DNA of 56,053 nt from a virus. The position numbers and the translations under genes were made by a program. The stretch is taken from positions 1-56,053 of the IMG/VR virus record IMGVR_UViG_3300047388_000165, one strand, 5' to 3'. Positions 1,764-21,000 of this stretch are shown piece after piece. How positions within the stretch are numbered: position 1 is the first letter of the stretch; every line of letters starts with the position of its first letter. The notes under the pieces are model-generated. The model was not told where the DNA came from. It did not search any database and was given only the letters and a program-made list of their open reading frames with translations.

Positions 1764-1772
1764 AAAGGACAG
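1764..1772 (+). promoter_or_regulatory. AAAGGACAG start-site box
   Basis: AAAGGACAG followed by CAAT leads to ATG 1777. AAAGGA is Shine-Dalgarno-like; the CAG extension recurs before other genes of this arm. Confidence 0.75.
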
Positions 1773-1776
1773 CAAT

Positions 1777-2268
1777 ATGCAGACTCAAAATGACGGACAA
1801 CTCGGACTAATCGGATTCGTTGACGACGCCATCAACCGCGTCTTCGCCCCGAAAGAGATCAAAGGCAAGAACGGCGCCACAGTGGGCACCTCAGTCACCA
1901 TGCGCTCTCGCAAGGACATTGCCGAAGCTCTCCAACTCAAGGGCAAAGACAACAAGGATGCGCTCGACGCGAAGATTCTCGAACAGTCCGACTCCGCCTT
2001 CCGGCAGGTCAAAGGCCAAATCGCCGGCCTCGGCAACGATTGGACGCTCGCCAAGGTGTCGCAACGCACCCTCGGCAATGGTGTCCGCCAAATCAGCGTG
2101 GTCGTAAAGGAAATCAAACGCCAAGTTGGCCCCAAGGACGAGGAAATCGCCAAGGCCCTCGGCTGGACCGTCGAACAGGTGCAGGAAGCCCGCAATCGCC
2201 AGGAAGCGGCGCTGGCCAAGAACACGGTCGACATGGAGCCCAGCGAAACTGCCCCGGTCAACGCCTGA
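1777..2268 (+). CDS. Hypothetical early protein, 163 aa
   Basis: It starts at ATG 1777 behind an AAAGGACAG box. The protein is soluble and charged, with an N-terminal LGLIGFVDDAINRVF segment, a middle section rich in Lys/Asp, and a C-terminal EEIAKALGWTVEQVQEARNRQE segment that looks like a helix-turn-helix or short coiled coil. It ends in a polar tail. I do not recognise the family. As the first longer gene of the rightward arm it is probably an abundant early protein; that is inference from position and leader. Confidence 0.7.
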   Translation: MQTQNDGQLGLIGFVDDAINRVFAPKEIKGKNGATVGTSVTMRSRKDIAEALQLKGKDNKDALDAKILEQSDSAFRQVKGQIAGLGNDWTLAKVSQRTLGNGVRQISVVVKEIKRQVGPKDEEIAKALGWTVEQVQEARNRQEAALAKNTVDMEPSETAPVNA

Positions 2269-2285
2269 ACGATGCCACACTCAAC

Positions 2286-2312
2286 ACCGGGTCGAGGACA
2301 CTAAGACCCGGT
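2286..2312 (+). other. Intergenic hairpin before 2321 gene
   Basis: ACCGGGTC and GACCCGGT form a perfect 8-bp stem with an 11-base loop. ATTTACCT and then the next ATG follow. The poor U-tract makes it either a weak terminator or an mRNA element that controls the downstream gene, which has no Shine-Dalgarno sequence. Confidence 0.5.
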
Positions 2313-2320
2313 ATTTACCT

Positions 2321-2554
2321 ATGCCTATTCGACAAGCCACGGTTAAATCACTCGCTGAAGGCGCTATCAACGCCCTCACCAACATCAATGGCGGCAGCAC
2401 TCACCTGAATGTCCGAGATTGGATGTTCTGGAGTGGAAAACTCACACCAGACGAGCTGGCTGAGCTGTACCAGCAGATACTCGACGGAATGGTCGAGGTG
2501 TACGCGAAGAACGGTGTGCCTGTTGAACAGTTCAAGGAGATGCTACCAAAATGA
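2321..2554 (+). CDS. Hypothetical protein, 77 aa
   Basis: ATG 2321 starts MPIRQATVKSLAEGAINAL. A longer frame upstream exists but overlaps the previous gene and looks like shadow sequence. The C-terminal part (LTPDELAELYQQILDGMVEVY) is an amphipathic helix. There is no ribosome binding site; the hairpin at 2286-2312 lies directly upstream. It overlaps the next gene by four bases. No family recognised. Confidence 0.6.
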   Translation: MPIRQATVKSLAEGAINALTNINGGSTHLNVRDWMFWSGKLTPDELAELYQQILDGMVEVYAKNGVPVEQFKEMLPK

Positions 2555-2748
2555 ACACCAAATGGCTGTTAATACAGGCGTTTCTCAATCGCATACCCTG
2601 CCGCGTCGTCACTCCTGGCGGCGAAGTACTTCAGTTCAAGGTCATCAACCGAATTGAGCACGAGGACGGCAGCACACGCTCCTTTAATGTCGAGGGCTTC
2701 GGCATGACGGGACAACCACTCAAAGCCCACCTGAGAACGGATGACTGA
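2551..2748 (+). CDS. Hypothetical small beta-rich protein
   Basis: It encodes 65 aa, coupled by an ATGA overlap. CRVVTPGGEVLQFKVINRIEHEDGS reads as alternating strands typical of a small beta-barrel, so an OB- or SH3-like fold is conceivable but unproved. Confidence 0.6.
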   Translation: MNTKWLLIQAFLNRIPCRVVTPGGEVLQFKVINRIEHEDGSTRSFNVEGFGMTGQPLKAHLRTDD

Positions 2749-2929
2749 TATGACTCAAATTGAAATTGACAACGAATTTGACCTCGATCGACTGAGGCGG
2801 AAGGAAAATGAAGCCTGGGAATTGGCCGGCTGCGCTCGCGTCGATCGTGATAAAACCGACGAAGCGCGGTGGACAGCTATTGCCCGCGCTATCCGTCAAC
2901 GAATGCTCGAACTGAGAGGTAGCCAATGA
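2741..2929 (+). CDS. Hypothetical small acidic protein
   Basis: It encodes 62 aa, overlapping the previous gene by eight bases; ATG 2750 is a second possible start. It is charged throughout and probably all-helical (FDLDRLRRKENEAWELAG, ARAIRQRMLEL). No family recognised. Confidence 0.6.
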   Translation: MTDMTQIEIDNEFDLDRLRRKENEAWELAGCARVDRDKTDEARWTAIARAIRQRMLELRGSQ

Positions 2930-3336
2930 AATATTTCTGGTACGGAATGGCTATATGCGTCGGATGTGGCTGCATCACATCAGTTATTAAGGGCTGGCTG
3001 CGTCACCGTCGAAACGTGGAGACTTGGAATCAAATCATCGACGGCATGGTCGACAACCTGCACCTGCTCCATGAGGAGACAGGGAAACTGGCCGAAGACT
3101 GGAATCGCTGGACGCTCGATGAGCGCAAGAAAGCTCTCTTTGATGTGATTCTGGGAGAGCGATTGAAGGACGACTCAAACCACGAGCGCAGCAAAGCAAT
3201 GGCTGATTGGACGCTCGAATTGCATACTCAAGACAATCCGACCCTTGCATGGAATCAGCACATCTACGCGATAATGATTCACCGCCGAATGGAGCTGGCC
3301 AAACGAGCAGTTCGAAAGGCGAAGCAAGCCAAGTAG
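2926..3336 (+). CDS. Membrane-anchored hypothetical protein
   Basis: It encodes 136 aa, ATGA-coupled to the gene before. Residues about 4-23 form one hydrophobic segment (FWYGMAICVGCGCITSVI), then a basic stop-transfer (KGWLRHRR) and a helical, charged cytoplasmic domain. The last residues are strongly basic (RRMELAKRAVRKAKQAK). An inner-membrane protein facing the cytoplasm is the natural reading. Function unknown. Confidence 0.65.
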   Translation: MKYFWYGMAICVGCGCITSVIKGWLRHRRNVETWNQIIDGMVDNLHLLHEETGKLAEDWNRWTLDERKKALFDVILGERLKDDSNHERSKAMADWTLELHTQDNPTLAWNQHIYAIMIHRRMELAKRAVRKAKQAK

Positions 3337-3399
3337 GCAAAGCACGGTGCGAGACGATCTCACTCGCTCCCTCTTTGCCAGCATGGTGCTGGTGATACG

Positions 3400-3408
3400 A
3401 AAGGACAG
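3400..3408 (+). promoter_or_regulatory. AAAGGACAG start-site box
   Basis: AAAGGACAG and AA precede ATG 3411. A small hairpin (CCAGCA...TGCTGG) sits just upstream in the 74-base gap. Confidence 0.75.
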
Positions 3409-3410
3409 AA

Positions 3411-3674
3411 ATGCAGAACATTGACGCCAAATTCCTGACAGCCTCGCAATTCCGACGGCTGGCAGATATCAAAGACCAAATCGCCGATCTCGAAAACGAG
3501 TTTAACACGATTGCCACCACTGGAACTCCAGTGAGTATGCCGGAGCCCGCACAGTTCAGGAATAAAACATACGTGGCCGGCACAGGCACTCACCGGAAGA
3601 TTACTCGCTGGACACCTGAACGCCGCGCGAAGTTTCGTCGCACAATGCGGCTGAAGCGCGAAGGGAAGCTCTGA
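3411..3674 (+). CDS. Hypothetical basic protein, 87 aa
   Basis: It starts at ATG 3411 behind an AAAGGACAG box. The N-terminal half is a predicted coiled coil (RRLADIKDQIADLENEFNTI). The C-terminal half is very basic (RWTPERRAKFRRTMRLKREG), suggesting nucleic-acid contact. Small proteins with a WTPERRAKF tail are common in phages, but no function is known to me. Confidence 0.65.
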   Translation: MQNIDAKFLTASQFRRLADIKDQIADLENEFNTIATTGTPVSMPEPAQFRNKTYVAGTGTHRKITRWTPERRAKFRRTMRLKREGKL

Positions 3675-3730
3675 CCGTTCCACTCCCGGCTCCTTGCGAG
3701 CCCGGACTGAAGCGATCATGCTTCATAACC

Positions 3731-3739
3731 AAAGGACAG
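3731..3739 (+). promoter_or_regulatory. AAAGGACAG start-site box
   Basis: CCAAAGGACAGAAC leads into ATG 3743. The 68-base gap before it carries two short hairpins (GGCTC/GAGCC at 3688-3702 and GAAGC/GCTTC just after). Confidence 0.75.
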
Positions 3740-3742
3740 AAC

Positions 3743-3934
3743 ATGAGTGCAAAAAATATACCGATTGAGTTCCCTCAAACCTCCACAGCCACCGAGCAGG
3801 GCGATGGCGTGCTGATTCACTGGACGTGTCAACCGCGGTTGACAGGCAAACGTCTCGTGGTGCTCTGCGCCACCGTCGAATCCACGCGCACCGTGAAGCG
3901 CATGACGAAATATCTGCGCGAGGAGGGGCGATGA
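3743..3934 (+). CDS. Small hypothetical protein containing palindrome
   Basis: It encodes 63 aa from ATG 3743 behind an AAAGGACAG box. A perfect copy of the dispersed palindrome is read in frame as CQPRLT, between an acidic N-terminal part and a basic C-terminal helix (TVKRMTKYLREEGR). Four-base overlap with the next gene. Function unknown. Confidence 0.6.
   Translation: MSAKNIPIEFPQTSTATEQGDGVLIHWTCQPRLTGKRLVVLCATVESTRTVKRMTKYLREEGR
3827..3844. repeat. Dispersed palindrome, copy 2 (perfect)
   Basis: TGTCAACCGCGGTTGACA, 18 of 18 to consensus. It lies inside the 3743 gene and is read as CQPRLT. Confidence 0.97.
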
Positions 3935-4401
3935 AAGTGACGCTCAAACGACTCTCTGCGTGCCCGTGCGGGTTCCACGCCCTGAATGACGACATCAAGC
4001 TGGGGACTGAGTATGAGGTCCAAGAGAACAGGCCGAAGCTGACCTTCGACTTCATCTGTGGTAATTGCGGCCACAAACAGAAGCTGATGGGGATATCAGT
4101 GACGCGCGATGGCGGACCTCCTGGATATCTTCCTGAGCTGCTGTTCAGTGACGAGGGCCAGAAGATGATGAAACTCACCGACATCTTGAGCGAAACCCAG
4201 CTCGACGAAGTGGAGCGCATCTTGAACGAGAGTGAGGGTGATCGGATGAAGGCCACGTTGGTGCTCCGGCGATACCTCTCGATGTTCAAAACTGAGCTGG
4301 AAGCCAAAGGCGTGGTCAGCGATTATCTTGCCTACGTCATCGCCTACAAGCAGTGGACTGGTGGCGACAACGGCGACCGCGTGGTCGCATTCAGCGCATG
4401 A
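3931..4401 (+). CDS. Zinc-finger hypothetical protein, 156 aa
   Basis: ATG 3931 gives MKVTLKRLSACPCGFHAL; the frame extends upstream but that part is shadow of the 3743 gene. CPC near residue 11 and CGNCGH near residue 50 could make one zinc ribbon. The C-terminal two thirds are helical and charged (ILSETQLDEVERILNESEG, TELEAKGVVSDYLAYVI). ATGA-coupled at both ends. No family recognised. Confidence 0.65.
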   Translation: MKVTLKRLSACPCGFHALNDDIKLGTEYEVQENRPKLTFDFICGNCGHKQKLMGISVTRDGGPPGYLPELLFSDEGQKMMKLTDILSETQLDEVERILNESEGDRMKATLVLRRYLSMFKTELEAKGVVSDYLAYVIAYKQWTGGDNGDRVVAFSA

Positions 4402-4544
4402 GGCCGTACGTGGATGGCCGGCGCAGTCGAATCCTGATGCGTAGGCCTCGCCAAAAACAAAAGCGTTATCAACGTCGCAAGGGCTACTGCTGGCCGGATT
4501 GGGGCAGCAAGCCTGAGTCTCGACATTGGATGGAAAACACTTAA
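4398..4544 (+). CDS. Small highly basic protein, 48 aa
   Basis: It starts at ATG 4398, overlapping the previous stop by four bases. It is extremely rich in Arg/Lys (RRSRILMRRPRQKQKRYQRR) and then Trp-rich, consistent with nucleic-acid or ribosome binding. It is too short to assign. Confidence 0.5.
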   Translation: MRPYVDGRRSRILMRRPRQKQKRYQRRKGYCWPDWGSKPESRHWMENT

Positions 4545-4558
4545 ATTCAGCACTCCGC

Positions 4559-4666
4559 TGTTTCATACTTGCAACAGCGGACTCCTGGAGTTAAAAGGAC
4601 AGGGCGTGAGTGAAGCACGCAATGGGGGATACCCCCTTCACTGTTAGCTAACAAAGAAAGAACAGT
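4559..4666 (+). promoter_or_regulatory. Structured leader before 4667 gene
   Basis: The leader contains a hairpin (GCTGTT...AACAGC), an AAAGGACAG box at 4594-4602, a 13-codon ORF and a nested hairpin (GTGAAG...CTTCAC enclosing GGGG/CCCC). The last element spans the mini-ORF. The 13-mer TGTTTCATACTTG at 4559-4571 recurs at 13508-13520 before the ParB-like gene. The layout suggests leader-peptide or translational control; unproved. Confidence 0.4.
4606..4647 (+). CDS. Possible 13-aa leader peptide
   Basis: GTG 4606 starts MSEARNGGYPLHC and stops at TAG, four bases... after an AAAGGACAG box placed exactly as before real genes. The codons lie within the nested hairpin of the leader. It could be a leader peptide for the 4667 gene or a decayed gene start. 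Confidence 0.3.
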   Translation: MSEARNGGYPLHC

Positions 4667-4957
4667 ATGAACGCAAATCAAGTTCAAGCCTTCGTGGACT
4701 CGGAAGTCCAGAAGCTCGCCGATCGCCGCATCAAGCCGCTCATCGCGGCCATCAACGGCGAACTGGAGACTCAGCGCCAGAACAATGCTGAGAAGGCTCG
4801 TCTCGACGCGCTCAACGCGGAAGGCGACAAGCGCATTGCCGCGTTGCAGGTTGATCTCGGCAAGGCCAACACGGAGGTCAACGACCTCGCGGTGAAGCTG
4901 GCAGAAGCCACGGCTGGCGCTGCCAATACCGGCTCGACGACTCCTAGCGCAAGCTAA
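4667..4957 (+). CDS. Coiled-coil protein upstream of Ubl cassette
   Basis: It encodes 96 aa from ATG 4667 behind AAAGAACAGT. Almost the whole protein is a predicted helical coiled coil (heptads through SEVQKLADRRIKPLIAAIN and GEKAxLDALNAEGDKRIAAL-type stretches). It ends in a short Ala/Thr/Ser tail. It directly precedes the ubiquitin-like gene and shares its transcript, which ends at the 5250 terminator. It could be an oligomeric substrate or adaptor; no function is recognised. Confidence 0.6.
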   Translation: MNANQVQAFVDSEVQKLADRRIKPLIAAINGELETQRQNNAEKARLDALNAEGDKRIAALQVDLGKANTEVNDLAVKLAEATAGAANTGSTTPSAS

Positions 4958-5000
4958 GCGTCGAGATAACCAACCAGAACAATAACCAAAAGGACACAAA

Positions 5001-5237
5001 ATGTTCCGATGCAAAGTTATGTATGGTCCCGACGAGTCTGAGTTCACGAGCGATACCCCGATCAAGATTGGGGATATCCGCCGTGCCCAGGAACTGCGCG
5101 ACGAACTCGGTTACGGTGATAACGTCAATCTGATGATTGGCGGAATTGCCATGCCCGACGACGCGATGGTTCCGCAGAACTCGGTCGTGGTGATCGAAAC
5201 CGCTGCGAACCGCAAGGCCGAACTGGCCTGCGCGTAA
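5001..5237 (+). CDS. Predicted ubiquitin-like (beta-grasp) protein
   Basis: It encodes 78 aa from ATG 5001 behind AAAAGGACAC. The pattern fits a small beta-grasp/ThiS-like fold: a first strand pair (FRCKVMYGP), a helix (IRRAQELRDELG), then strand-rich VNLMIGGIAMPDDAMVPQNSVVVIE, where the sequence ending DxxxVPxNSVVVI resembles the closing strands of ubiquitin-like proteins. It is followed by E2-like, E1-like and JAMM genes, which is the strongest support. The C-terminus is RKAELACA, with no Gly-Gly, so it would need a different processing point or mode of activation. PRTRC systems have a similarly small protein, but I see no clear match to it. Confidence 0.55.
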   Translation: MFRCKVMYGPDESEFTSDTPIKIGDIRRAQELRDELGYGDNVNLMIGGIAMPDDAMVPQNSVVVIETAANRKAELACA

Positions 5238-5249
5238 GCAGTAAACCGT

Positions 5250-5302
5250 GTGCCCCAGTGGTCCGAGTAACGAGCTCGGCTGCTGGGGCACTTTTCTTGT
5301 TT
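5250..5302 (+). terminator. Rho-independent terminator
   Basis: GTGCCCCAG and CTGGGGCAC form a 9-bp GC-rich stem with an inner CCGAG/CTCGG hairpin, followed by TTTTCTTGTTT. It separates the ubiquitin-like gene from the E2-like gene, so the modifier can be transcribed at higher levels than the enzymes. Confidence 0.85.
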
Positions 5303-5318
5303 AATCCAAAGGAAAGAT

Positions 5319-6065
5319 ATGGAAACAAAATTACAGTTTATTATTGCGGAGAACGGCACGTTCTACCGCGAGGACATCACCCGGAGAGAGATCGTGGTGG
5401 GGGATGCGCTGCAACGCGCGCTCAACGCCAACGTCGTCTCGAAGGTTCACAACTTACTTGAACTGCCCAGCCATGGAGCGGTTCACTTGGTTTATACCCA
5501 GCAGGACGCCACCTGGAACTTCTCGGTTCCGATGGAAACCATCAACTTTCGCACGACGTTCAAACCGATCGTCAACGAGGCGAAATACAAAGACCAGCTC
5601 TACCCGACGTTTGCCCCCAAGGAGACGACGGATACGATCATGGAGATCGAGTGGTCCCGGGAAAAAGCCATGGTCAGTCAGGACGCATCCATGCGGATTC
5701 GCTTCCTGGTGCAGGTCAAAGAACACAACGGCGGCTATTACGCGCATGACCACTACCTCTTCGCCTTCGATGGCCGGGGAGTCGCGTATCGCATGCCAAT
5801 CGCCAATCTCTTCGACACGTGTCAGGTGTGCATGGGCACCTACGATTCGAAGTCCACTACCGCCATCGGATCAGTCATTCTGGCGCTGCGGCAATTCCGC
5901 TCCGCTTCGTGGAACGCAGACTTGTTTCGCAACAAGGATACGGTCTGGAAATTCATCCGGTTCAAAGCACTGGAAAAAGGGTTCGAAACGCAATCGATCG
6001 TGGGAGCGTGGACTACGCTCTGCGAAAAGGTTGCCCCACCGCAACTCAAATTCTGTGACGTATGA
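5319..6065 (+). CDS. E2-like protein, PRTRC protein B type
   Basis: It encodes 248 aa from ATG 5319 (AAAGGAAAGAT upstream). Residues about 105-150 give strands typical of an E2/UEV core. PIANLFDTCQVCMGTYDS at 160-177 mimics the E2 active-site region: Asn163 stands for the E2 asparagine and Cys171 in VCMG for the catalytic cysteine, with Cys168 nearby. A helical C-terminal part follows (DTVWKFIRFKALEKGFE). Overall length and this motif match my memory of PRTRC system protein B, which is thought to be E2-like. It would pass an activated ubiquitin-like protein to a target. Four-base overlap with the next gene. Confidence 0.65.
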   Translation: METKLQFIIAENGTFYREDITRREIVVGDALQRALNANVVSKVHNLLELPSHGAVHLVYTQQDATWNFSVPMETINFRTTFKPIVNEAKYKDQLYPTFAPKETTDTIMEIEWSREKAMVSQDASMRIRFLVQVKEHNGGYYAHDHYLFAFDGRGVAYRMPIANLFDTCQVCMGTYDSKSTTAIGSVILALRQFRSASWNADLFRNKDTVWKFIRFKALEKGFETQSIVGAWTTLCEKVAPPQLKFCDV

Positions 6066-6418
6066 GCGAGACGTATCCTGAAGCGTTGCAGGTGTTATTG
6101 AACTGCGAAAACGCCACCAACCTGAAAGACCATATCGATCGCACCATCGTGAGCGTTGGCAAAGCGATGGAGATTGACACTCTCGAATATCACTCCGGGA
6201 TGTATGCCCGCAAGGACTTCACCGTCGGCGCATTAGTTGCGTCTGATCCTGAAGTTCGCCGACTGGTCAGTCGAGCGGGAGTGAATATTCGGGACTTCGA
6301 CACGAACATCTCCATAGCGTCACGGGCGATTCAGGAGGAGATGAACAAGCGCAGCCCGATTGGTGAGAAGATCGCCAAAGTCTTGAGGGATACCTGCGCC
6401 AATAGGAGCGTCCGATGA
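6062..6418 (+). CDS. Unknown protein inside conjugation cassette
   Basis: It encodes 118 aa with ATGA overlaps on both sides, so it is tightly coupled to the E2-like and E1-like genes. It is mostly helical, soluble, with one Cys near residue 14 and one near the C-terminus (DTCANRSVR). I recognise no family. Its fixed place between E2 and E1 suggests a subunit, adaptor or substrate of the system; that is inference from context. Confidence 0.65.
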   Translation: MSETYPEALQVLLNCENATNLKDHIDRTIVSVGKAMEIDTLEYHSGMYARKDFTVGALVASDPEVRRLVSRAGVNIRDFDTNISIASRAIQEEMNKRSPIGEKIAKVLRDTCANRSVR

Positions 6419-7395
6419 AATCCACCATCTATATTATCGGGTGCGGTGGTGTGGGTAGTTGGCTGGCGCCGTCGCTGGCCTTGCTCACCTCCCCAAAGCA
6501 AATCGTGCTCATCGACGCGGACATGCTGGAAGAGAAGAATCTCGACCGGCAGTTGTTCAAACCGGAAGACATTGGTCGCTCGAAGGCGGAAGCGCTGGCT
6601 GAGCGATACGGGTGTAATCACCTGCACGCTTGGTTCTCGGAAGGACTGATGGAGTTCCATGAGGACGACTGGCTGATCGTGTGTGTCGATAACCACATGG
6701 CACGCAAGGCGGCACTCTCAGTCTGCGACCGGTATGGCACATTGGCCATCTTCGCGGCCAACGAGACGCACTCCGCTGAGGCATACTTCTATCAACGCGA
6801 GTGGATGAATCAACCACTCGATCCCCGGGTTTACTTCCCTAATATTCTCACCGACAAGTCCAATGACCCGCGCTCGCGGACCATCGGCTGCACGGGAGAG
6901 GCGCAGGTGGAAAACCCCCAGCTAGTAACGAGTAACGCACTGGCGGCATCTTTGGCCGGCCACCTTTTCGCGCTGTGGCATCTCCACGCGCCCACGGTCA
7001 AATCAAAGACAATTCCATTCCTACCATACCGTCTCGTGGCGAACCGAACTCGCCTGGAGACTCACTTAATCAAAGACAAACTGAAAGGACAGACAGATGA
7101 GCGATCCCAACCTACACCCGGAGGAGCAGTCGTGGCCGACGCTGCCAATACTTCCGGACCCACCGAGTCCACCGGAGCCAGTGGACCAGAGCCCACAGCA
7201 GCCAATATTGCCAATAATCCAAATGGAGACAGTGCAGGACGACACACTGGACGGGCTGACTCGAATAACGGACACGTCGGCAGCTCAAGCAGTGCCGAGT
7301 CAACCGCGGTTGACACAGGACGAGACGCCGTCGCCGTCCGAGACACCGCCCCCATCCACGTCGGAGCCAGAAGTGGAGGCGGATATGGCGGCTAA
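6415..7395 (+). CDS. ThiF/E1-like adenylating enzyme, PRTRC type
   Basis: It encodes 326 aa. The ThiF domain covers residues about 1-215: nucleotide loop GCGGVGSW at 9-16, LIDADMLEEKNLDRQLF at 32-48 (Asp34/Asp36, Arg45-Gln46), Lys57, the conserved VDNHMAR Asp at 92, and GCTGE at 158-162 with Cys159 as candidate thioester cysteine. It should adenylate the C-terminus of the ubiquitin-like protein. PRTRC ThiF proteins are about 245 aa; the extra C-terminal 100 residues here are low-complexity Gly/Ser/Ala/Asn and overlap the next gene in another frame. The tail contains the palindrome read as STAVD. The true functional end may be near residue 225. Confidence 0.85.
   Translation: MKSTIYIIGCGGVGSWLAPSLALLTSPKQIVLIDADMLEEKNLDRQLFKPEDIGRSKAEALAERYGCNHLHAWFSEGLMEFHEDDWLIVCVDNHMARKAALSVCDRYGTLAIFAANETHSAEAYFYQREWMNQPLDPRVYFPNILTDKSNDPRSRTIGCTGEAQVENPQLVTSNALAASLAGHLFALWHLHAPTVKSKTIPFLPYRLVANRTRLETHLIKDKLKGQTDERSQPTPGGAVVADAANTSGPTESTGASGPEPTAANIANNPNGDSAGRHTGRADSNNGHVGSSSSAESTAVDTGRDAVAVRDTAPIHVGARSGGGYGG
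7084..7092 (+). promoter_or_regulatory. AAAGGACAG start-site box inside E1 gene
   Basis: AAAGGACAG and ACAG lead to ATG 7097, within the E1-like coding sequence. It supports 7097 as a real start despite the long overlap. Confidence 0.65.
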
Positions 7396-8038
7396 AAAGA
7401 AGGTGGCCATCGCAATGGATGGCGCCATCAAAGTCGTGGAGGTGCCTGAGCCGCTCAAACGCAAGTGCGAGCTGAAGGACGTGTTGCCACAGGGCGTGAT
7501 TCAGTTGCTGGCGTCCGCGCCACACAACGAAACCGTCCGCAACGTGCTGCTCGCGCATTTGAAAGTGCCAGTGCCTGAGGAGCTGAAGAGCTACAAGGAC
7601 ATTCAGGACTGGATCGAGTTCAACATCGAGCCTCCCAAGGCGCTAGCGGCGAAAGGCGGAGTTCCTATACCGGCTTCACGTGCGGAGGTGGTCGCGGTCG
7701 CTATCGCCTTGGATGATAGGGAGCATGGAACGTGTTCTTACTCCCGCGACATGTGGGGGCGGGGAACTGTCAACGTGACGCAACATGACATCGTCACGGC
7801 AGCGGCGGAATCGGATGACTCGGATGAGTTCTGGGGGAGAGTGCGAGATGTAATCTACGAAGAAGGCCCAACCGATCACATCGAGATAGAACCGGTTCCG
7901 AACAGCGCGTCACTCAGTGATTGTGACGTGCATGACAGCGACGGGCTGACTGTGGAGATACAGACGGCGGGCTACCAATCGGTCAAGGACTTCCTTGCCC
8001 GGGTCAATCCCGAGGCTTACGAACGACTCTTTGAGTAA
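7097..8038 (+). CDS. Unknown cassette protein with Pro-rich N-terminus
   Basis: From ATG 7097 this is 313 aa. The first 96 residues are Pro/Ser/Thr/Glu-rich and disordered and overlap the E1-like gene out of frame. ATG 7385 (MAAKKKVAIAMDG), with GGAGGCGGAT just upstream, is an alternative start that would leave only 11 bases of overlap. The folded part contains LKSYKDIQDWIEF, a strand-rich middle with HGTCSYSRDMWGRG, and an acidic C-terminal half. It sits between the E1-like and JAMM genes. No family is recognised; PRTRC systems also contain poorly characterised partners at this position. Confidence 0.65.
   Translation: MSDPNLHPEEQSWPTLPILPDPPSPPEPVDQSPQQPILPIIQMETVQDDTLDGLTRITDTSAAQAVPSQPRLTQDETPSPSETPPPSTSEPEVEADMAAKKKVAIAMDGAIKVVEVPEPLKRKCELKDVLPQGVIQLLASAPHNETVRNVLLAHLKVPVPEELKSYKDIQDWIEFNIEPPKALAAKGGVPIPASRAEVVAVAIALDDREHGTCSYSRDMWGRGTVNVTQHDIVTAAAESDDSDEFWGRVRDVIYEEGPTDHIEIEPVPNSASLSDCDVHDSDGLTVEIQTAGYQSVKDFLARVNPEAYERLFE
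7298..7315. repeat. Dispersed palindrome, copy 3 (17/18)
   Basis: AGTCAACCGCGGTTGACA; only the first base differs from consensus. It lies in the region read in two frames, as STAVD in the E1-like ORF and as SQPRLT in the 7097 ORF. Confidence 0.95.
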
Positions 8039-8052
8039 ATTAACCAGCAACC

Positions 8053-8061
8053 AAAGGACAG
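8053..8061 (+). promoter_or_regulatory. AAAGGACAG start-site box
   Basis: CCAAAGGACAGAAA precedes ATG 8065 of the JAMM gene. Confidence 0.75.
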
Positions 8062-8064
8062 AAA

Positions 8065-9291
8065 ATGAAAATGAAAGTGAACGGGAATATCGTCGAGGAC
8101 GATGTTTCCATAGAGGGGCTGCTTGAGTGCAAGCTGTCCCATCATATCAAAGAAACCAAGGGCACGGTGATTTACACCGGGCCAAAGATTCCACCGGAAG
8201 TGTGGAATGAAGTGCTCTCGTTCTTCAAGTGGTGCTACACCACCTACAAGAGTGAGTGCCAGGTGAGGCTGTTCGTCAGTCCCACCCAGAACACGTGGCG
8301 AGCGTGGGCGTTCCCACAGGAAGCCAAGACGGGCATGACCGCTCGTGAGATCGACAACGAGGACGCGCGGACTCAACGGGCCGAGCTGAACATGAATCCA
8401 CCGGATTGGATTTACTTCGGCACGGTTCATCATCACTGTGGCGCTGGAGCTTTCCAGTCGGGCACGGATGAGGAGAACGAGAAGAATCAGGACGGGCTGC
8501 ATATCACCGTTGGCAAGATGGATGAGAAGAAGCATGACCTGCACGCGCGGTTCTACCGCAAGGGGCTCAAGTTCACGCCGGACTTGAGCTGGTTCTTCGA
8601 TGTGGAGCCGGCACTGGAACAGGTCAGGACGTGGATGGCTTCATCGCCAGTCACACTCGACCCGAAGATCAATCCCACATTGTTCCTTGGCCACAAGGAC
8701 AAAGACGACCTCGCCAAAAGTCTGATGTGCGAGCCGTCGGAGGTGGAGTTCCCGCAGGCATGGAAAGACAACATCATCGAGATCAGGCCGGTGACGCCGA
8801 CCTATCCCGTGACGCCTTACTTCTCGGCCAGCTCTCCAGCGGGTAGCAATGGGACGACACACGGAGTCACGCACGTTCCGTCGGTTTACAGTCCAGACCA
8901 CGATCCTGTGTGGCAGCGAACGCGAAGGGCATGGAGTGAGATTCTGTTTCACTGCGTTGTGCACGAGATTGCCCCGGAGGATATCGAATCCGCCATCGGC
9001 GACCTTGCGCTCAAGGACTTCGCCCCCAACGTCGTCGTCATGGCCTGTCGTCACCACAAGGTCGACCCGGACGATCTGGAACGGGAGATGCCAACGAACC
9101 TTGCTCAAGCAATAGTGGAGGAGGCGATGTCGCAGGCGCAGGAGCGGCATGAGAGAACTGCTCCCACCCCAAAACAAAACACCAGCACGCCAAGAAGTCA
9201 GGCAAAAAGCGAGGGAAAAAAGGCCGATGGAGAGGCCCCCGCTTCTGGAACCGTTGATGGGGACGACTGGTCCCACCTCTCAGTAACTTAA
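8065..9291 (+). CDS. JAB/JAMM metallopeptidase with C-terminal extension
   Basis: It encodes 408 aa from ATG 8065. Residues about 1-185 form a JAB/MPN-like domain with an exact JAMM zinc motif: His122-x-His124, seven residues, Ser132-x-x-Asp135 (VHHHCGAGAFQSGTDEE), followed by DGLHITVGKM. A Glu upstream (such as Glu86) would complete the site. JAMM enzymes cut isopeptide or C-terminal bonds of ubiquitin-like proteins, so this is the predicted deconjugase or processing peptidase of the cassette. The C-terminal 200 residues are unknown, with a helical domain near 285-365 and a Lys/Ser/Thr-rich tail. The cassette ends here with the structured element at 9299. Confidence 0.8.
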   Translation: MKMKVNGNIVEDDVSIEGLLECKLSHHIKETKGTVIYTGPKIPPEVWNEVLSFFKWCYTTYKSECQVRLFVSPTQNTWRAWAFPQEAKTGMTAREIDNEDARTQRAELNMNPPDWIYFGTVHHHCGAGAFQSGTDEENEKNQDGLHITVGKMDEKKHDLHARFYRKGLKFTPDLSWFFDVEPALEQVRTWMASSPVTLDPKINPTLFLGHKDKDDLAKSLMCEPSEVEFPQAWKDNIIEIRPVTPTYPVTPYFSASSPAGSNGTTHGVTHVPSVYSPDHDPVWQRTRRAWSEILFHCVVHEIAPEDIESAIGDLALKDFAPNVVVMACRHHKVDPDDLEREMPTNLAQAIVEEAMSQAQERHERTAPTPKQNTSTPRSQAKSEGKKADGEAPASGTVDGDDWSHLSVT

Positions 9292-9298
9292 CCAATCT

Positions 9299-9375
9299 GG
9301 GTGTGGGGCCGCAAATACACGTGGTTGCGACAGGCTCCTGTCCGGCCAGCCCCACACCCTTCTCAATTTCCGTAA
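9299..9375 (+). terminator. Branched RNA structure, probable terminator
   Basis: GGGTGTGGGGC pairs with GCCCCACACCC (11 bp). Inside are two smaller hairpins, CGCAA...TTGCG and ACAG...CTGT, giving a three-way junction. TTCTCAATTTCC follows, a modest U-rich tail. It ends the conjugation cassette transcript or acts as a stable RNA end. Confidence 0.65.
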
Positions 9376-9385
9376 TACAAAAACT

Positions 9386-9700
9386 ATGAACATCGAAGTA
9401 ATCCACGGCGGAGGACTCCCTGAGCTGGGAGTTTTTCTTGGTAGCGCCATCGACAGCATGCCGCCAACAGTCGCGCAGGCGATGCTCGGCGGGATATTCG
9501 CCAACATCGTCGGCAACATTTCCGACGAAAACTGGGAAGCCCTCAAGCAGGCGGCGCAGCTACCGTGTGAGTGTGGCGACCCCGACTGCAAGGTTTCCAT
9601 CACAGCGGTAATCGAAGCGGGCGATAAAGCCCGCAAGCAGTTCAAGAAATGCCAGGGCGAGCCGCCCAGCAATTCTGAGGAGAAAGGTTTCTCGGTATGA
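9386..9700 (+). CDS. Hypothetical protein, 104 aa
   Basis: ATG 9386 follows an AT-rich leader without a clear ribosome binding site. The N-terminal half is hydrophobic and Gly-rich (LGVFLGSAIDSMPPTVAQAM, IFANIVGNI) and may be membrane-associated. CECGDPDCKV in the middle could bind metal. ATGA-coupled to the next gene. No family recognised. Confidence 0.6.
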   Translation: MNIEVIHGGGLPELGVFLGSAIDSMPPTVAQAMLGGIFANIVGNISDENWEALKQAAQLPCECGDPDCKVSITAVIEAGDKARKQFKKCQGEPPSNSEEKGFSV

Positions 9701-9882
9701 AGCGTAAAACCAGCAAGCGTATTGCTGAAATCTACAACGAGGTCGAAGCAGGGTTTGATGAGAAGGCGACCGAGTTTCTGCTGGAAGTCACCGCTGAGCG
9801 CGTCCGGCTCGAGCGGCTAATTACTGATTGCGACCATGGACACGTCGCAGATGCCCTGATTCAAGAAGGAGTTTACAAATGA
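9697..9882 (+). CDS. Hypothetical small protein, 61 aa
   Basis: It overlaps by four bases at both ends and is all-helical and charged (KRIAEIYNEVEAGFDEKATEFLLEVTAERVRLERLI is interrupted by only one loop). It directly precedes the annealing protein and is likely co-translated with it. Function unknown. Confidence 0.6.
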   Translation: MKRKTSKRIAEIYNEVEAGFDEKATEFLLEVTAERVRLERLITDCDHGHVADALIQEGVYK

Positions 9883-11081
9883 ACAACAACGATCAAATCC
9901 CAGGGGCCGAAGTGCCCGAAGCAGAAGTCATCAACGAAACCACCACAGTCGAGCGACGCGCGGACACACCTCCACCAGTTAAACGCGAAAGCGTGACACC
10001 CGAGCAGGCCAAAGTGGATGCCGTGGCCGAGTTGACCATGACTGCCTACGCCAAAGCCAGTGAGTTGGTGTTGACACCCGACGAACAGCTCGCGCTACAA
10101 AAAGACTTCCCGGACGAGGCGTTCCGACCGGGAGCAGCTGGCAAGGAGAACCTACTCTACATCGAGCACGCCTTCCTGCGTGGCCGGCTCAACGAAGTGC
10201 TTGGACTCGGCCAGTGGTCCATCATCCCACGAAAGCGATGGGCTGAGGACTTCATACTCCCAGCCACCCGCGACCGAGCTGAGACACCGGCCAGCCGGGT
10301 CTACGTCGAGGCGATGCTCGTCATCCGCGGTTGTTTCGTGGCGGAAGCCATCGGGGACATGGTGTATTACAAGAACAACCAGTCCCAGAACTACGGCGAT
10401 GCGGTCGAAGGTGCCAAGACGGCAGCCCTTCGTCGCTGCACCAAAGAGCTGGGTATCGGACTCCAAGCGTGGAAGAAGGACTGGTGCGAGGGATGGTGGC
10501 AGCGAAACCGAGGCGGCAGACCCGCTCAGAATGCCCCAGGACGCTCTGGGGGGTCCCAGAGTCCACCCCCAGCCCGTCCGGCAGCGCCTGCCCAGCAAAG
10601 CGCTCCAAGACCTGCCGCCAGAACGGCTGATGTGGTGCCTCCCACAGACGCAACTGAGGAGCAGAAAACCCGGTTCATCACCTCTCTGTCCAACATCAGG
10701 ACAGACGCATTGAGGTTCTTCGTTTCGAAGGGTCACCTGACCGACCTTCAGCAGCTCGAAGCCCTGCCGTTGAAACACGTGCCAGCGACCAAGAAGCAGT
10801 ACGACGACGTGATGGCGCAGATCGAGGCGTTCTCTACTCAGCCAGGGCCGGGCGCAACCGAGTTGTGGCGAGCGTATCCAATGCCGTGGGGGAAGAACAA
10901 GGACACACCGCTGGGCCAGCTCGAGAAAAACTACCTCTATGGACTCGTGATGAACTACGAGGTCGAGCGCGAGTACAATGGTGCCCCCAAGAAGGACGAG
11001 ACGATTGCCAAGGACGAGGAGTTCCGGCGCATGCTCGACGACGCTGGTCGGCACTACGATTGGATCAAGGAAAAGCAGTAA
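9879..11081 (+). CDS. Rad52/22-type single-strand annealing protein
   Basis: ATG 9879 (MNNNDQIPGAEV) has GAAGGAGTTTACAA upstream and an ATGA overlap, so it is preferred over a longer frame. About 400 aa. Residues 90-220 carry the Rad52/22 core: RLNEVLGLGQWSIIPRKRW, a strand block VYVEAMLVIRGCFVAEAIG, and GDAVEGAKTAALRRCTKELGIGL, the typical helix near the DNA groove. A disordered Pro/Gly/Arg linker follows, then a C-terminal MPWGKNKDTPLGQL...YLYGL module as seen at the end of some exonucleases and phage recombinases. It should anneal single strands together with the nuclease at 11894. Confidence 0.8.
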   Translation: MNNNDQIPGAEVPEAEVINETTTVERRADTPPPVKRESVTPEQAKVDAVAELTMTAYAKASELVLTPDEQLALQKDFPDEAFRPGAAGKENLLYIEHAFLRGRLNEVLGLGQWSIIPRKRWAEDFILPATRDRAETPASRVYVEAMLVIRGCFVAEAIGDMVYYKNNQSQNYGDAVEGAKTAALRRCTKELGIGLQAWKKDWCEGWWQRNRGGRPAQNAPGRSGGSQSPPPARPAAPAQQSAPRPAARTADVVPPTDATEEQKTRFITSLSNIRTDALRFFVSKGHLTDLQQLEALPLKHVPATKKQYDDVMAQIEAFSTQPGPGATELWRAYPMPWGKNKDTPLGQLEKNYLYGLVMNYEVEREYNGAPKKDETIAKDEEFRRMLDDAGRHYDWIKEKQ

Positions 11082-11090
11082 ACCAGAACA

Positions 11091-11099
11091 AAAGGACAG
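11091..11099 (+). promoter_or_regulatory. AAAGGACAG start-site box
   Basis: AAAGGACAGAAC precedes ATG 11103. Confidence 0.75.
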
Positions 11100-11102
11100 A
11101 AC

Positions 11103-11381
11103 ATGATAACGAAATGGCTAAAAAATAGAGTCCAGCGCAGGCTGGACCAACAACAGCAACGCGCTGACGCGCAACTTAAACTGGAACAGCAACTCGTCGA
11201 ACTTGGACCCCAACTCAAGGACACACTCATGAAGGCTGGTATTTTCCCGTTCAGCCGAATCAATCGCAATCTCGAGGGAAATTACATCGAGATGTATGGC
11301 ACCCTCAACGGACGGCTGGTGAAGGGTGAGATGACTGCCAAAGGGGCATTCCTCATCAAATACGTGGAGGGGTTCAAATGA
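11103..11381 (+). CDS. Hypothetical protein, 92 aa
   Basis: It starts at ATG 11103 behind the box. The N-terminal 40 residues are a basic, Gln-rich coiled coil (RRLDQQQQRADAQLKLEQQL). The C-terminal half looks like a small beta structure (NYIEMYGTLNGRLVKGEM). It lies between the annealing protein and the nuclease. Function unknown. Confidence 0.6.
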   Translation: MITKWLKNRVQRRLDQQQQRADAQLKLEQQLVELGPQLKDTLMKAGIFPFSRINRNLEGNYIEMYGTLNGRLVKGEMTAKGAFLIKYVEGFK

Positions 11382-11890
11382 GAGACAATCCGTTCAAACG
11401 AAGACTGGAGGCTGTCGCTGACATCGCCTTCGTCGCAGGGGCATATCGCTACCATAGCGGAGATTCCCGGAAAGACGTGGAGGACTTCATCGCGTGGGCT
11501 GACGAGTTTGAGTCGACGCGCACGTGCCCACCAGACGGCAATGAAACCTACAACGGCAAGGACTACATGACTGCCGTTGCGGAGTTCGCAGAGATCAAGC
11601 TGAAGGAGGAAGGTGTTGGAAAGGCCGGCCACGCAAAAGCAAATGCCCTCAGCACATTCCTGAGCGTGTGGGGCGACGATCAATACCTCGTTACCGACAT
11701 TGGGCCAAAACTGGGTTGTGGTGAGTGCGACGCATTATTCAACCTCCTGAAGGCGTACGGCTTCACGGACACAGCAGAAGCGCTGCTCGATTCACACTCC
11801 CTTGAGGATGATGACGACGATTATCCTGAGCACGTTACCCGACGGGACAAAATGAAACAGGAAGAACCACGAGAAGACGTTCCTTTTTAA
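11378..11890 (+). CDS. Hypothetical protein, 170 aa
   Basis: ATGA-coupled to the previous gene. The middle section carries CPPDGNETYNGKDY and GPKLGCGECDALFNLLKAYG; GCGECDAL resembles a loop of phage proteins of unknown role. The C-terminal tail is very acidic (EDDDDDY) and then basic. Sits between the annealing protein and the RecB-like nuclease. Confidence 0.6.
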   Translation: MRDNPFKRRLEAVADIAFVAGAYRYHSGDSRKDVEDFIAWADEFESTRTCPPDGNETYNGKDYMTAVAEFAEIKLKEEGVGKAGHAKANALSTFLSVWGDDQYLVTDIGPKLGCGECDALFNLLKAYGFTDTAEALLDSHSLEDDDDDYPEHVTRRDKMKQEEPREDVPF

Positions 11891-11893
11891 CCT

Positions 11894-12748
11894 ATGAAAA
11901 TCACCAACAAATTCGGACTGCCTGAACCACTGGTCAACGCGGTCAAGTACTCCACTTACACCAAGGGCGAGGCTGACTTCAGTGTCACCGAGCTTATCAA
12001 ACCACCACGCATCGCAGCGCTGGAGATTCTGCACGACGAGGCACTCGAAGAAGACGCGAGCGACCGTCTGTGGATGCTCATGGGCTCAGCCGGCCACGAG
12101 GTTTTGCGACGGTCATCGAACGGCGGCATCGTGGAAGAGCGGTGCATCGTTGAGTTCGAAGGCAAGAAAATCTCCGGTCAGCTCGACTATGCGGTCGCGC
12201 TCAAGGAAATCATCGACTACAAATTCGTCTCGCTCTGGGCCATCCGAGATGGCGTCAAACCGGAGTGGGAACAGCAGCTCAACCTCTACAAGTGGATGGC
12301 TGAGCAATACGGCGTCACGGTGGAGAGCCTGAAGATCATCGGCATCCTCCGAGACTGGTCCAAGCCGGAAGCGCGGCGCAATCCTGACCTGCCGCAGTCG
12401 CAAGTCGTGGTGCTGCCAGTGAGAATCTGGGAGACGCACATGGTTCAAGACTTTCTCAGAATCCGCATCCACGAACACGAGCAGGCACGGTCTGGAAACC
12501 TTCCATTCTGCACTCCCGAAGAGACGTGGGAGCGGCTTGAGAAATACGCGGCGATGAAGAAGGGCAACCAGCGAGCCTCGAAAGTTGAGGACACCAAGTT
12601 CGCCATCGGACAGTGGATAGCGTCTCAAGCGAAGCCATCTCAATTTGAGATTGAGGTGAGGCCAGCGGAGAGGCCGCGTTGTGAGTCGTACTGCCCGTGC
12701 AGTGGTGTCTGCGAACAATTCAACGATTGGAAGAAAGGACAGCAATGA
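11894..12748 (+). CDS. RecB/Cas4-like PD-(D/E)XK nuclease
   Basis: It encodes 284 aa. Core motifs are visible: His68 in GSAGHEV, Asp98 in SGQLDYA, IIDYK at 106-110 with Asp108 and Lys110, and QLNLY at 128-132. This is the order seen in RecB-type and Cas4-type nucleases. The C-terminus carries CESYCPCSGVC, which with a Cys near residue 84 could hold an iron-sulfur cluster as in Cas4/AddB-type enzymes. It would resect DNA for the Rad52-type protein encoded 800 bases upstream. Confidence 0.8.
   Translation: MKITNKFGLPEPLVNAVKYSTYTKGEADFSVTELIKPPRIAALEILHDEALEEDASDRLWMLMGSAGHEVLRRSSNGGIVEERCIVEFEGKKISGQLDYAVALKEIIDYKFVSLWAIRDGVKPEWEQQLNLYKWMAEQYGVTVESLKIIGILRDWSKPEARRNPDLPQSQVVVLPVRIWETHMVQDFLRIRIHEHEQARSGNLPFCTPEETWERLEKYAAMKKGNQRASKVEDTKFAIGQWIASQAKPSQFEIEVRPAERPRCESYCPCSGVCEQFNDWKKGQQ
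12734..12742 (+). promoter_or_regulatory. AAAGGACAG start-site box
   Basis: AAAGGACAGCA precedes ATG 12745 while still inside the nuclease gene. Confidence 0.7.
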
Positions 12749-17918: not shown

Positions 17919-18007
17919 TACGAGTGCCGGACTTTGTCCCACTCTTAATCCTTATCTCGGTAGTCGTCGGGCTCGTGCTCGACCGGCTACTTCGACGGCG
18001 CAGGTGA
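17915..18007 (+). CDS. 30-aa single-pass membrane peptide
   Basis: ATG 17915 overlaps the primase stop (ATGA) and has AAAGGAGAACAA upstream, one of the best ribosome binding sites of the arm. The peptide is one hydrophobic helix (FVPLLILISVVVGLVL) with an Arg-rich end (DRLLRRRR). It ends 21 bases inside the convergent giant gene. Small membrane toxins or regulators look like this; the role is unknown. Confidence 0.55.
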   Translation: MIRVPDFVPLLILISVVVGLVLDRLLRRRR

Positions 18008-21000
18008 CTGCTTCGTCAACTCATCGATCAGCAACGTTTGAAAATTACTGAACGTCTGCTGCCGTTCCACCCGTGCCCGGGAGTACAGGTCCAACTCCTT
18101 GTCGGTCAAATCCGACAGGAAGTACTTCTCAGCGACCTTGCTCCCGGTGAACGGGCGGGCATTCCAGAGCTGCATGGCTTTGTAAATCTGGTTGTCCGTC
18201 CGGGTCTGCCGCAACTTCTCCAGTGCCTGCTGAAATCCCTTCTTGTCTTCTGACATCGCCGCGCGGCGCAGGTCGTTATATCCCAGTTCGTCGGTCTGAA
18301 TCTGTTGCCAACCCGTGCTCTTGTTGAGCCCGTTGGTCTTCACAAACTCGTCTGCCTTCTTGAAAATCTGGTTGTTCGCGGTCGGCGCGGGCTCCGTCTT
18401 CACGCCCAGCGACGCCATCGCCTGACGCTGCACGGTTCCTGGTGCCGGCGGCTGGCCAATACCCATCGCTGCCAATCCCGCCTGTCCCACCTTGCCCAAC
18501 GAAATCGGAACCGGAACCATTGCCTTCCCCATTTCCTTCGCCATGCCGCCGGTGCTGGTGATCTTGCGGTGGTCGGGCGTCTCTCCGGTGGCAAAGATCA
18601 TCGCTGCCCGACCGTAGGGACCCAGCTTGTTCTCACCGATCTGGTGGACCGCGTCGTAAACGGTGGGCTTGTTCCCACTCAGTCGAATCACATCGTGCGT
18701 CACCTCGTTGAAGAGCGACAGCGGGCTCATGAAGAATCCTCCACTCTTGCCGGTCACGTCGGGAATCCAGGCGTCCCACTTGTGTCCCTCTTCCTCGTTC
18801 TGCCATGTGGGCTTGCGTCGCGTGATGAGATTGATCGCCTGAGTCACCACGAACATGGCGGCGAGTCCGCGGGCAATGCCACGGCCAGCGGTGCCCAGCA
18901 GCGGCACGTCGCGTCGTCCGGCAAGATACGAGAGCCCGGTCAAACGGCCCGGCAGCGCTGACTCCTTCTTGATGAGCCCTTCCACCCACTGCGGCGCCAG
19001 CCCGAACATGCGAAAGATATCCTGAAAGGTCTGGTTCTTAATCCAGCCCTGACGGCCAATGCTGCCCATGTAGTTGTTGGTGTCGCGGGCGACATCGTCC
19101 ACCAGCCTCCGATAATCCACCTTTGGGTTCTCGCGGTTCATCCGCTCAAACTCCTTCACGGCAGTTTCCAGCATCAGCCCACGGGTGAACTTGTCGAAGA
19201 GCCACTTGTTGTACTTTCCAATGGGACCGCTCTCCACTTTGTAGATAGCGTCAGCGATTCGGCCAGCGTTCAGGCCGCGCTTTAGGAACATATCCGCGAT
19301 CTGGCGACGGGTGATCTGCGTCTTGCCCGCTGGCAGGTTCACGTCGATTAGTGTGTTGGCCCACTCCGCATCTTCCGGACGGACCAGTCCCTTGGCGACC
19401 GCGCCAGGAATGTCCTCCGGACGATACTCGAGGATGCTCAGGCCACCTTTGTAGCCGCCTTTGCCGATGCCGTTGATGGACCAGTCGTATGCTTTGAGCC
19501 GTCCAAGGTGGAAGGTGTCGAGGAACAGGATGGTGTGCTTCAGCTTCTGGCTGAACTGCATCGCGCGGCGCGTGGCGGGAACGTCACGGATGATGCTGCT
19601 GCCCACCAGGGCTTTGATGATGTCCACCGATCCCTTGTGAACGGCCATGTATTTGTTGCCGAAGTCCACCAGATCATACTCGGGCGATGGGCCGGTGTAG
19701 CTGCCATCCGGACGGCGCACGGGCTCAACCACCATCGGCTTGTCACTGTGCGGGTCCTTCAAAGTCTTCAGACTCTTCTCCCAGAGGCGGGTTTCAATCT
19801 GTCGCATGCCTTGACGCACACGGTGAGCCACCAGCGCCGCACCATCCATGTTGAATGGCAGGTAGTTCCCGGCAGCGATGGCCTCGTAGTAGTTGCTGAA
19901 CGTGGCCGGCTTGCGGAAGTTGCGTCCCAGGATGCGCGGTCCTTCCATGAAATTGATCCGGTCACCGTCAAACCACTGCTCGTCGTAACGACCGGGAAGG
20001 TAGTTCTCAGCCCGCTTCACTCGCATGCCCATGTCGCGTTCGGTGCGGTGTTGGGCCTCCATCTCCACGACCATCTTCGCCGCAGTGTCTTGCAGCTCGG
20101 GCTCGTTCCAGTGCTCCTCGGCATACTTCAGCTGCTCGCGCATGTCGCCCACAGCCTTGAGTCGGGCGCGGGCGGCGCGGCGGTCGAGCATACCCTGCAT
20201 GCCACCACCCTTGGACTCGATGATGTTCTTGGACTTCTGTTCTGCCGTGTCGAGTTGCCGGCCAAATCGCTCCAGCTGATCGAAAGCCTTCTTGTTGTAT
20301 TTGATGGTGCCGGTGTGCCAGTCGATCTCACCGTCATCCACCATTTGCAGGACAGTTTCACGCTTCAGCTTGGCAAGCATCTGACCGCCACGGGCTTTGT
20401 CGATGGGATCGGCTGAAGAGAACAGTCCCTCGATGTTCCGGTAGATCGGGTCCTGCTTCATCTTCTCCAGCACGACCGGCTTCATCTCATCCGGCACCGG
20501 ATAATCGATGGTGTAAGCCCCAGCCTGAACCACTGTGGGCGCGGCCTTCAGAACTTCCTTGTTGCCATTGGGCATCTTCTTGTCGGCAGTCACGAACCGG
20601 ATGGCTTTGTCCGCCTTATCGCCAGCGACCGAGTATTGGGTGTCGACCGCATCCCGGGTGGCAGACAGCTGCTGCTCGGAGGCTTTGCGTTTCACGTAGG
20701 CCGTGAGCGCGCTCACTGCATCCGCCGTGTCCTCTTTCAATTCCTCAACTCGGCGCAGGGCTGCCGGGCCGCCATGCTTCTTGAACAGGTCCAGCTGGCC
20801 TTTGTTGCCCTCACCTTTGGCCACGACCTTTTTCTCCGCCTTCAGTGACTCACCAGCGGGCTTAGACGGCGATTCCGATTCTACGTCACGCTCTGGGAAA
20901 AGCTCACGGTTGATGTAGTCGGAAACCTCTTTGTCCGCAGCTTCCTGTCTTGCGGCCTCGTCTTCCGCCAAAGCATCAGACCCTTCGTTTGGCTCCCTTT

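Follow-up and report, generated by a model that had tools for sequence, protein, structure and literature searches.

A putative phage-encoded cassette for ubiquitin-like conjugation and deconjugation in environmental viral genomes

We analyzed a 56,053-nucleotide stretch of DNA that corresponds to a single virus record, IMG/VR IMGVR_UViG_3300047388_000165 (hereafter, the window), and we focused on a cassette of six open reading frames (ORFs) at 5001–9291, all on the + strand. In order, these are predicted to encode a ubiquitin-like protein (Ubl), an E2-like protein, an accessory protein (the 6062 protein, named for its start position), a ThiF-type E1, another accessory protein (the 7097 protein), and a JAMM-type metalloprotease (Table 1). 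An original prediction, made from the sequence alone, had listed these ORFs and had singled out the motifs GCGGVGSW and GCTGE (with Cys159) in the E1, VCMG (with Cys171) in the E2-like protein, and HxHx7SxxD in the JAMM protein. All six ORFs are present at those positions and on that strand, and the motifs are as described, which is far beyond chance.

Table 1. Predicted features of the cassette and its immediate surroundings (window coordinates).
Feature	Length	Position	Strand	Basis or remark
Ubl, predicted beta-grasp with flexible tail	78 aa	5001..5237	+	AlphaFold 2, Foldseek, VIA, family alignment
E2-like protein	248 aa	5319..6065	+	PRTRC protein B profile match, Prok-E2_D in relatives, Cys motif
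Accessory protein (6062)	118 aa	6062..6418	+	Fast-evolving; 16–27% identity
E1-like ThiF adenylyltransferase	326 aa (core about 1–231)	6415..7395	+	Pfam ThiF, PRTRC ThiF profile, conservation
Accessory protein (7097)	313 aa	7097..8038	+	Proline-rich N-terminus, conserved core from about residue 120
JAMM/MPN-type metalloprotease	408 aa	8065..9291	+	Prok-JAB in relatives, PRTRC protein A profile, metal-site conservation
AAAGGACAG, ribosome-binding-type motif of the 7097 gene		7084..7092	+	Inside E1 codons Lys-Gly-Gln
Small conserved gene	96 aa	4667..4957	+	Same position, just upstream, in three nearest relatives; outside core

The E1 matches Pfam's ThiF family (4.4e-18) and NCBIfam's PRTRC_ThiF (7.6e-13), which describes a component of the plasmid-borne PRTRC system. 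When we compared profiles, the E1 family and PRTRC ThiF matched at 4.3e-19 with the catalytic cysteines aligned. Besides the GxGGxGS nucleotide-binding motif, the E1 contains D36, R45, K57, and D92, and the predicted catalytic residue, Cys159, is invariant in 85/85 homologs (alignment gaps are left out of this and the other counts for catalytic residues).

The E2-like protein has a predicted catalytic cysteine, Cys171, within N163-x7-C-x-G (VCMG), as well as the motif N199-x-D201-L. C171, D201, and N163 are each found in 62/62 of its relatives, and Cys171 is invariant in 75/75 homologs. In a profile comparison with PRTRC protein B (7e-6), NLFDTCQVCMG aligned to NTWDHGKICIG. Pfam's Prok-E2_D (PF14460) matches 27 of the 62 relatives at E values of up to 1 (best 5.1e-8); the gathering score of 25 is exceeded by proteins from L036 (33.3 bits) and L066 (25.4 bits), and the protein from the window is itself unmatched. 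The AlphaFold model has a pLDDT of 93.5, and its matches in BFVD were two uncharacterized proteins of uncultured phages (4.6e-9 and 8.9e-4).

The JAMM protein has an upstream glutamate (E64) and the motif H122-x-H124-x7-S132-x2-D135; given its position, E64 is probably the catalytic glutamate. H122, H124, S132, and E64 are found in 89/89 homologs and D135 in 88/89. The window's protein matches Prok-JAB weakly (0.0032), with a hint of similarity to PRTRC_A (0.021). Prok-JAB matches 25 of the 55 relatives, and a profile comparison with PRTRC protein A (4.4e-6) aligned the metal site. The protein also has an extra C-terminal region of ~200 amino acids.

The cassette could instead encode inactive or competing copies that act as decoys by titrating a host's Ubl-type defence, and phages do encode inhibitors of such systems. 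We consider this improbable, because the catalytic residues of the E1, the E2-like protein, and JAMM are invariant across 75–89 distinct homologs. Also, the phage brings its own Ubl.

AlphaFold models the Ubl with confidence (pLDDT 87.3) as a ubiquitin fold whose tail is flexible. The Foldseek and VIA matches shown for it were to ubiquitin, NEDD8, SUMO, and further ubiquitin-like domains, or to fusions containing such a domain (Z scores of 8.2–8.7). AlphaFold, Foldseek, and VIA thereby agree on a predicted beta-grasp of the ubiquitin type, on which the original prediction had depended. The Ubl had no family of its own in Pfam or NCBIfam scans.

Ubiquitin-like proteins typically end in a C-terminal glycine. 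The Ubl had been noted to lack a terminal Gly-Gly, and this is true of the whole family, which ends in Lys-Ala, often with a variable tail. Among 52 non-redundant Ubls, a lysine near the C-terminus is invariant (52/52), and the next residue is Ala in 47, Gly in 2, Gln in 2, and Asn in 1. Thirty of the 52 terminate at this residue, and the others have from 1 to 30 unconserved residues beyond it; in the window, Lys72-Ala73 is followed by the tail ELACA. Furthermore, three relatives encode two Ubl domains head to tail in a single ORF (L061 5613–6080, L062 5857–6294, and L069 5575–6012), where the first Lys-Ala is separated from the second domain by two or three residues. These di-Ubls look like a phage analog of the poly-ubiquitin precursor, and di-Ubls and tails alike, with JAMM always adjoining, resemble the processing of ubiquitin precursors. 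The conserved Lys-Ala end, the variable tails, and the di-Ubls imply that the mature Ubl would end in alanine, which JAMM would expose where there is a tail. Such an end would depart from the usual glycine. By analogy, a C-terminal alanine should be compatible with conjugation, because in CBASS, Cap2 conjugates cGAS proteins whose last residue is Gly or Ala (PMC10097602).

Given the E1's ThiF-type domain and a beta-grasp fold that is common to ThiS and MoaD, the Ubl might be a sulfur carrier that bears a thiocarboxylate for a small molecule or tRNA. Sulfur carriers of this kind end in Gly-Gly, whereas the phage Ubl ends in Lys-Ala and can have a tail. Also, an E2-like cysteine protein and JAMM always accompany the Ubl, and we did not recognize a rhodanese or biosynthesis gene nearby. 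A sulfur carrier is therefore very improbable.

To find relatives of the cassette, we used alignment-based scans of IMG/VR, which yielded 38 E1 loci and 84 JAMM loci, of which we kept 80. (A scan of viral contigs with the single JAMM sequence found no match, so alignments were needed.) Genome contigs gave another 10 loci from metagenome-assembled genomes (MAGs), mostly in Verrucomicrobiota bins. We then determined gene order with iterated HMM searches over all ORFs; some of the loci share one contig. With all genes on one strand, 24 loci have the arrangement Ubl-E2-U6062-E1-U7097-JAMM (where U6062 and U7097 encode the accessory proteins), 17 have Ubl-E2-E1-U7097-JAMM, and 43 have Ubl-E2-E1-JAMM. 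The remaining loci are truncated or have one piece duplicated. Because Ubl-E2-E1-JAMM is common to every recurring arrangement, the constant core is these four genes. The cassette is present in dozens of IMG/VR contigs and in some MAG contigs, with its order and strand kept, and pairwise dN values far below dS indicate purifying selection on all four core genes. Verrucomicrobiota as the host is a lead that comes from the MAG bins alone.

We found no close relative of JAMM or of the E2-like protein in annotated phage records. A JAMM query from the marine group did match one unannotated faecal phage contig, MT835919.1, which has divergent genes in the order JAMM-E1 and a separate, distant E2-like ORF at 6445–7137. 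Its gene content suggests a third arrangement of the system.

That the window is a phage contig is well supported by its gene families, which include a terminase (a weak match), a helicase, a primase, and an exonuclease, along with a transaldolase. Terminase matches were found in 23 of 35 records, including the window. No terminase was found on the MAG contigs with the cassette, which may be prophages or binned phages. In the window, genes for replication and recombination follow the cassette on its strand, and in 15 related loci from the window's group, a helicase gene lies downstream of the cassette, which favours a role during replication. The cassette had been described as part of a phage early region: the phage part of this description holds, and "early" we infer from the series of + strand replication genes, so that the cassette is probably expressed early.

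The fixed association with phage genomes, and a four-gene core without obvious host-specific partners, would also fit a system for tagging or processing structural or replication proteins of the phage itself, as a step in assembly or maturation. There is a precedent in lambdoid phages, whose tail-assembly genes contain Ubl (TAPI) and JAB-NlpC (TAPK) domains (Iyer et al. 2006, PMC1779556). Although TAPI and TAPK resemble the cassette in being a phage-encoded Ubl and JAB protease, they lie among tail genes without an E1 or E2, while the cassette has a full activation cascade. Moreover, in the window the cassette is within the replication block and on the opposite strand from most structural genes, and we saw no fusion of a Ubl to a virion protein. 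So, we view such a step in assembly or maturation as an unlikely main role.

Bacteria are known to have complete sets of E1, E2, Ubl, and JAMM, for the most part in defence or plasmid systems. Like the cassette, PRTRC has separate genes for a Ubl, an E2-like protein, a JAB/JAMM protein, and a ThiF protein on one strand. From its gene content, we read operon class 6d of Iyer et al. (2006, PMC1779556) as PRTRC. The suggested comparison with PRTRC proteins worked for the E1, the E2-like protein, and JAMM, which are homologous by profile to their PRTRC counterparts with the active sites aligned. It did not work for the Ubl, which had no profile match to PRTRC protein C (hhalign with 52 sequences, E = 0.2–0.29). 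Protein C ends in Lys-Gly, with a short tail beyond this in 2 of 4 sequences, so the end of the phage Ubl looks like the same scheme with Ala in place of Gly. The similar tail and the shared partners are all that suggest a kinship between these two proteins.

Nevertheless, the cassette does not appear to be a PRTRC system, because the scores, the gene order, the E2 histidine, and the end of the Ubl all differ. We used the NCBIfam models TIGR03735–03738. The phage E1 scores 48.3 bits against PRTRC_ThiF (TIGR03736; cut-off 144.75), and the phage JAMM scores 14.4 bits against PRTRC_A (TIGR03735; cut-off 101.8). PRTRC_B (TIGR03737) does not match the window's E2-like protein and weakly matches 10 of 62 relatives (best E = 0.0014). 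The order in plasmid loci is ParB-E-C-F-B-A-ThiF, instead of Ubl-E2-x-E1-x-JAMM. We detected no homolog of PRTRC E or F in the cassette, though its two accessory proteins evolve fast. The conserved C-terminal glycine of protein C is usually replaced by alanine. E2-like proteins of class 6d have an absolutely conserved histidine downstream of the cysteine (Iyer et al. 2006, PMC1779556); no histidine is conserved among the 62 phage relatives, and that spacing holds N199-x-D201-L instead. Finally, PRTRC is plasmid-borne while the cassette is phage-borne, and in a tree of 50 E1s (with a small outgroup and midpoint rooting), the 44 phage-type E1s cluster as a single clade (support 100/100) to which neither PRTRC nor the two other plasmid E1s belong.

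While making these comparisons we also came across a Clostridioides plasmid, pESS17301a, in which a single run of genes (2230–5678) encodes a Prok-E2 family D protein, a ThiF protein, and a small protein with Asn-Lys-Gly as its C-terminus. Judging from these genes, this is probably another Ubl-type cassette outside PRTRC.

The bacterial defence operons Bil and Bub contain a Ubl, E1, E2, and JAB/JAMM deconjugase together, as the cassette does. They differ from it in their setting (bacterial defence operons instead of phage genomes) and from its family of Ubls with a C-terminal alanine. No curated Bil or Bub model matched, although no dedicated profiles were compared; the ThiF part had a weak match in the Protein Data Bank (PDB) to BubCD (E = 0.0055). 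The same biochemistry might serve against competitors, as a superinfection-exclusion module that tags the proteins of rival phages in the manner of Bil or Bub. Phages often carry defence genes, and Bil and Bub are themselves defensive. E1/E2/JAMM sets also act in anti-phage defence in CBASS, where Cap2 and Cap3 share with the cassette a ThiF-type E1, an E2 cysteine relay, JAB deconjugation, and a conjugated protein that may end in Ala (PMC10097602). However, Cap2 is an E1-E2 fusion instead of separate ORFs, and the CBASS modifier is a cGAS-like enzyme instead of a ubiquitin fold; we saw no nucleotidyltransferase in the cassette. Also, matches to defence families are limited to the shared ThiF domain (the PADLOC E1-E2 matches cover only residues 2–76 of the E1), and in about 15 related loci the cassette forms a conserved genomic segment beside replication genes, not cargo in a variable spot. 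We therefore doubt that exclusion of other phages is its purpose.

The most economical explanation is that the cassette encodes an active conjugation and deconjugation system that is homologous to PRTRC yet distinct from it. More specifically, we propose that it is a self-contained, reversible, phage-encoded ubiquitin-like conjugation system (probability roughly 0.78), and ubiquitin-type tagging as its way of working is well supported. The Ubl would be synthesized in one of three forms: ending directly in Lys-Ala, extended by a short C-terminal tail, or as two domains head to tail. JAMM would cut tailed forms after Lys-Ala to expose the C-terminal alanine. The ThiF enzyme would use ATP to adenylate this alanine and would then take the Ubl onto Cys159 as a thioester. 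From there, the Ubl would be passed to Cys171 of the E2-like protein, which would attach it to targets, most likely on lysine, and JAMM would also strip it from them. The two accessory proteins probably help to choose or hold targets. Most likely, the targets of the cassette are proteins of the host or the phage, in the course of takeover or counter-defence.

Several observations weigh against this proposal. Its catalytic steps, cleavage site, targets, early timing, and purpose are all inferred from sequence and prediction. A Foldseek search of the PDB with the E2-like model gave no meaningful match and no E2, and VIA gave only a very weak match to Atg3 (Z = 2.6). Because the structure search recovered no E2, calling this protein E2-like, as had been predicted, relies on its homology to PRTRC protein B and Prok-E2_D and on its cysteine motif. 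No E3 was recognized, the accessory proteins lack known relatives, a few Ubls have Gln, Asn, or Gly in place of the alanine, and the Ubl does not match PRTRC protein C. Also, the terminase match in the window is weak (1.3e-5, at 31.5 kb), and the viral collections that we searched consist of environmental contigs.

The idea of a phage-borne full set, and possibly a new branch, is supported by fold, homology, and synteny. No description of such a set in a phage emerged from our literature search, whose scope did not include preprints or most subscription journals. We lean towards the view that the cassette represents a widespread, previously undescribed class of virus-encoded Ubl conjugation in bacteria, with complete enzymes, linkage through a C-terminal alanine, and, in some phages, a poly-Ubl precursor. 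That dozens of environmental contigs carry the full set as a conserved genomic component suggests a routine use of protein tagging by some phages. Because the four-gene core is small and should be easy to reconstitute, its chemistry and targets are directly testable.

Two members of the cassette had been described as partners of unknown kind, and we likewise recognized no family for the 6062 and 7097 proteins in Pfam or NCBIfam scans. The 6062 protein's slot between the E2 and E1 genes is kept in the window's group, and the protein was not detected in the group with the four-gene core. Among 26 relatives of the 7097 protein, there was no convincing Pfam family. Neither protein has profile similarity to PRTRC E or F, though both evolve fast.

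The E1 and 7097 genes overlap by 299 bp (7097–7395) in different frames, so that the proline-rich N-terminus of the 7097 protein overlaps the E1, whose ThiF core ends near 7107. In one relative (L003), the E1 stops just past the start of the downstream gene, which hints that read-on of the E1 may have created the overlap. We also considered a later start for the 7097 gene, directly after the E1's stop codon, but this is disfavoured by the AAAGGACAG motif before 7097 and by L003. More generally, AAAGGACAG precedes the start codons of many + strand genes at 1764–12734 in the window (9 on the + strand and 0 on the − strand), as a strand-specific and unusually uniform ribosome-binding-type site.

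Elsewhere in the window, a 16-bp perfect palindrome, GTCAACCGCGGTTGAC, has eight copies, at 3828, 7299, 13777, 23952, 24492, 28573, 41024, and 50759 (six exact and two with one mismatch; 0.02 are expected by shuffling). Several of these sites are inside ORFs. The palindrome is possibly an operator or another kind of recognition site. The transaldolase-like gene (46858–47619, − strand) matches phrog_440 (5e-32); transaldolase is an auxiliary metabolic gene that is better known from cyanophages. Lastly, a single ORF of 2128 amino acids (17987–24373, − strand) possibly encodes a polyvalent or injected virion protein.

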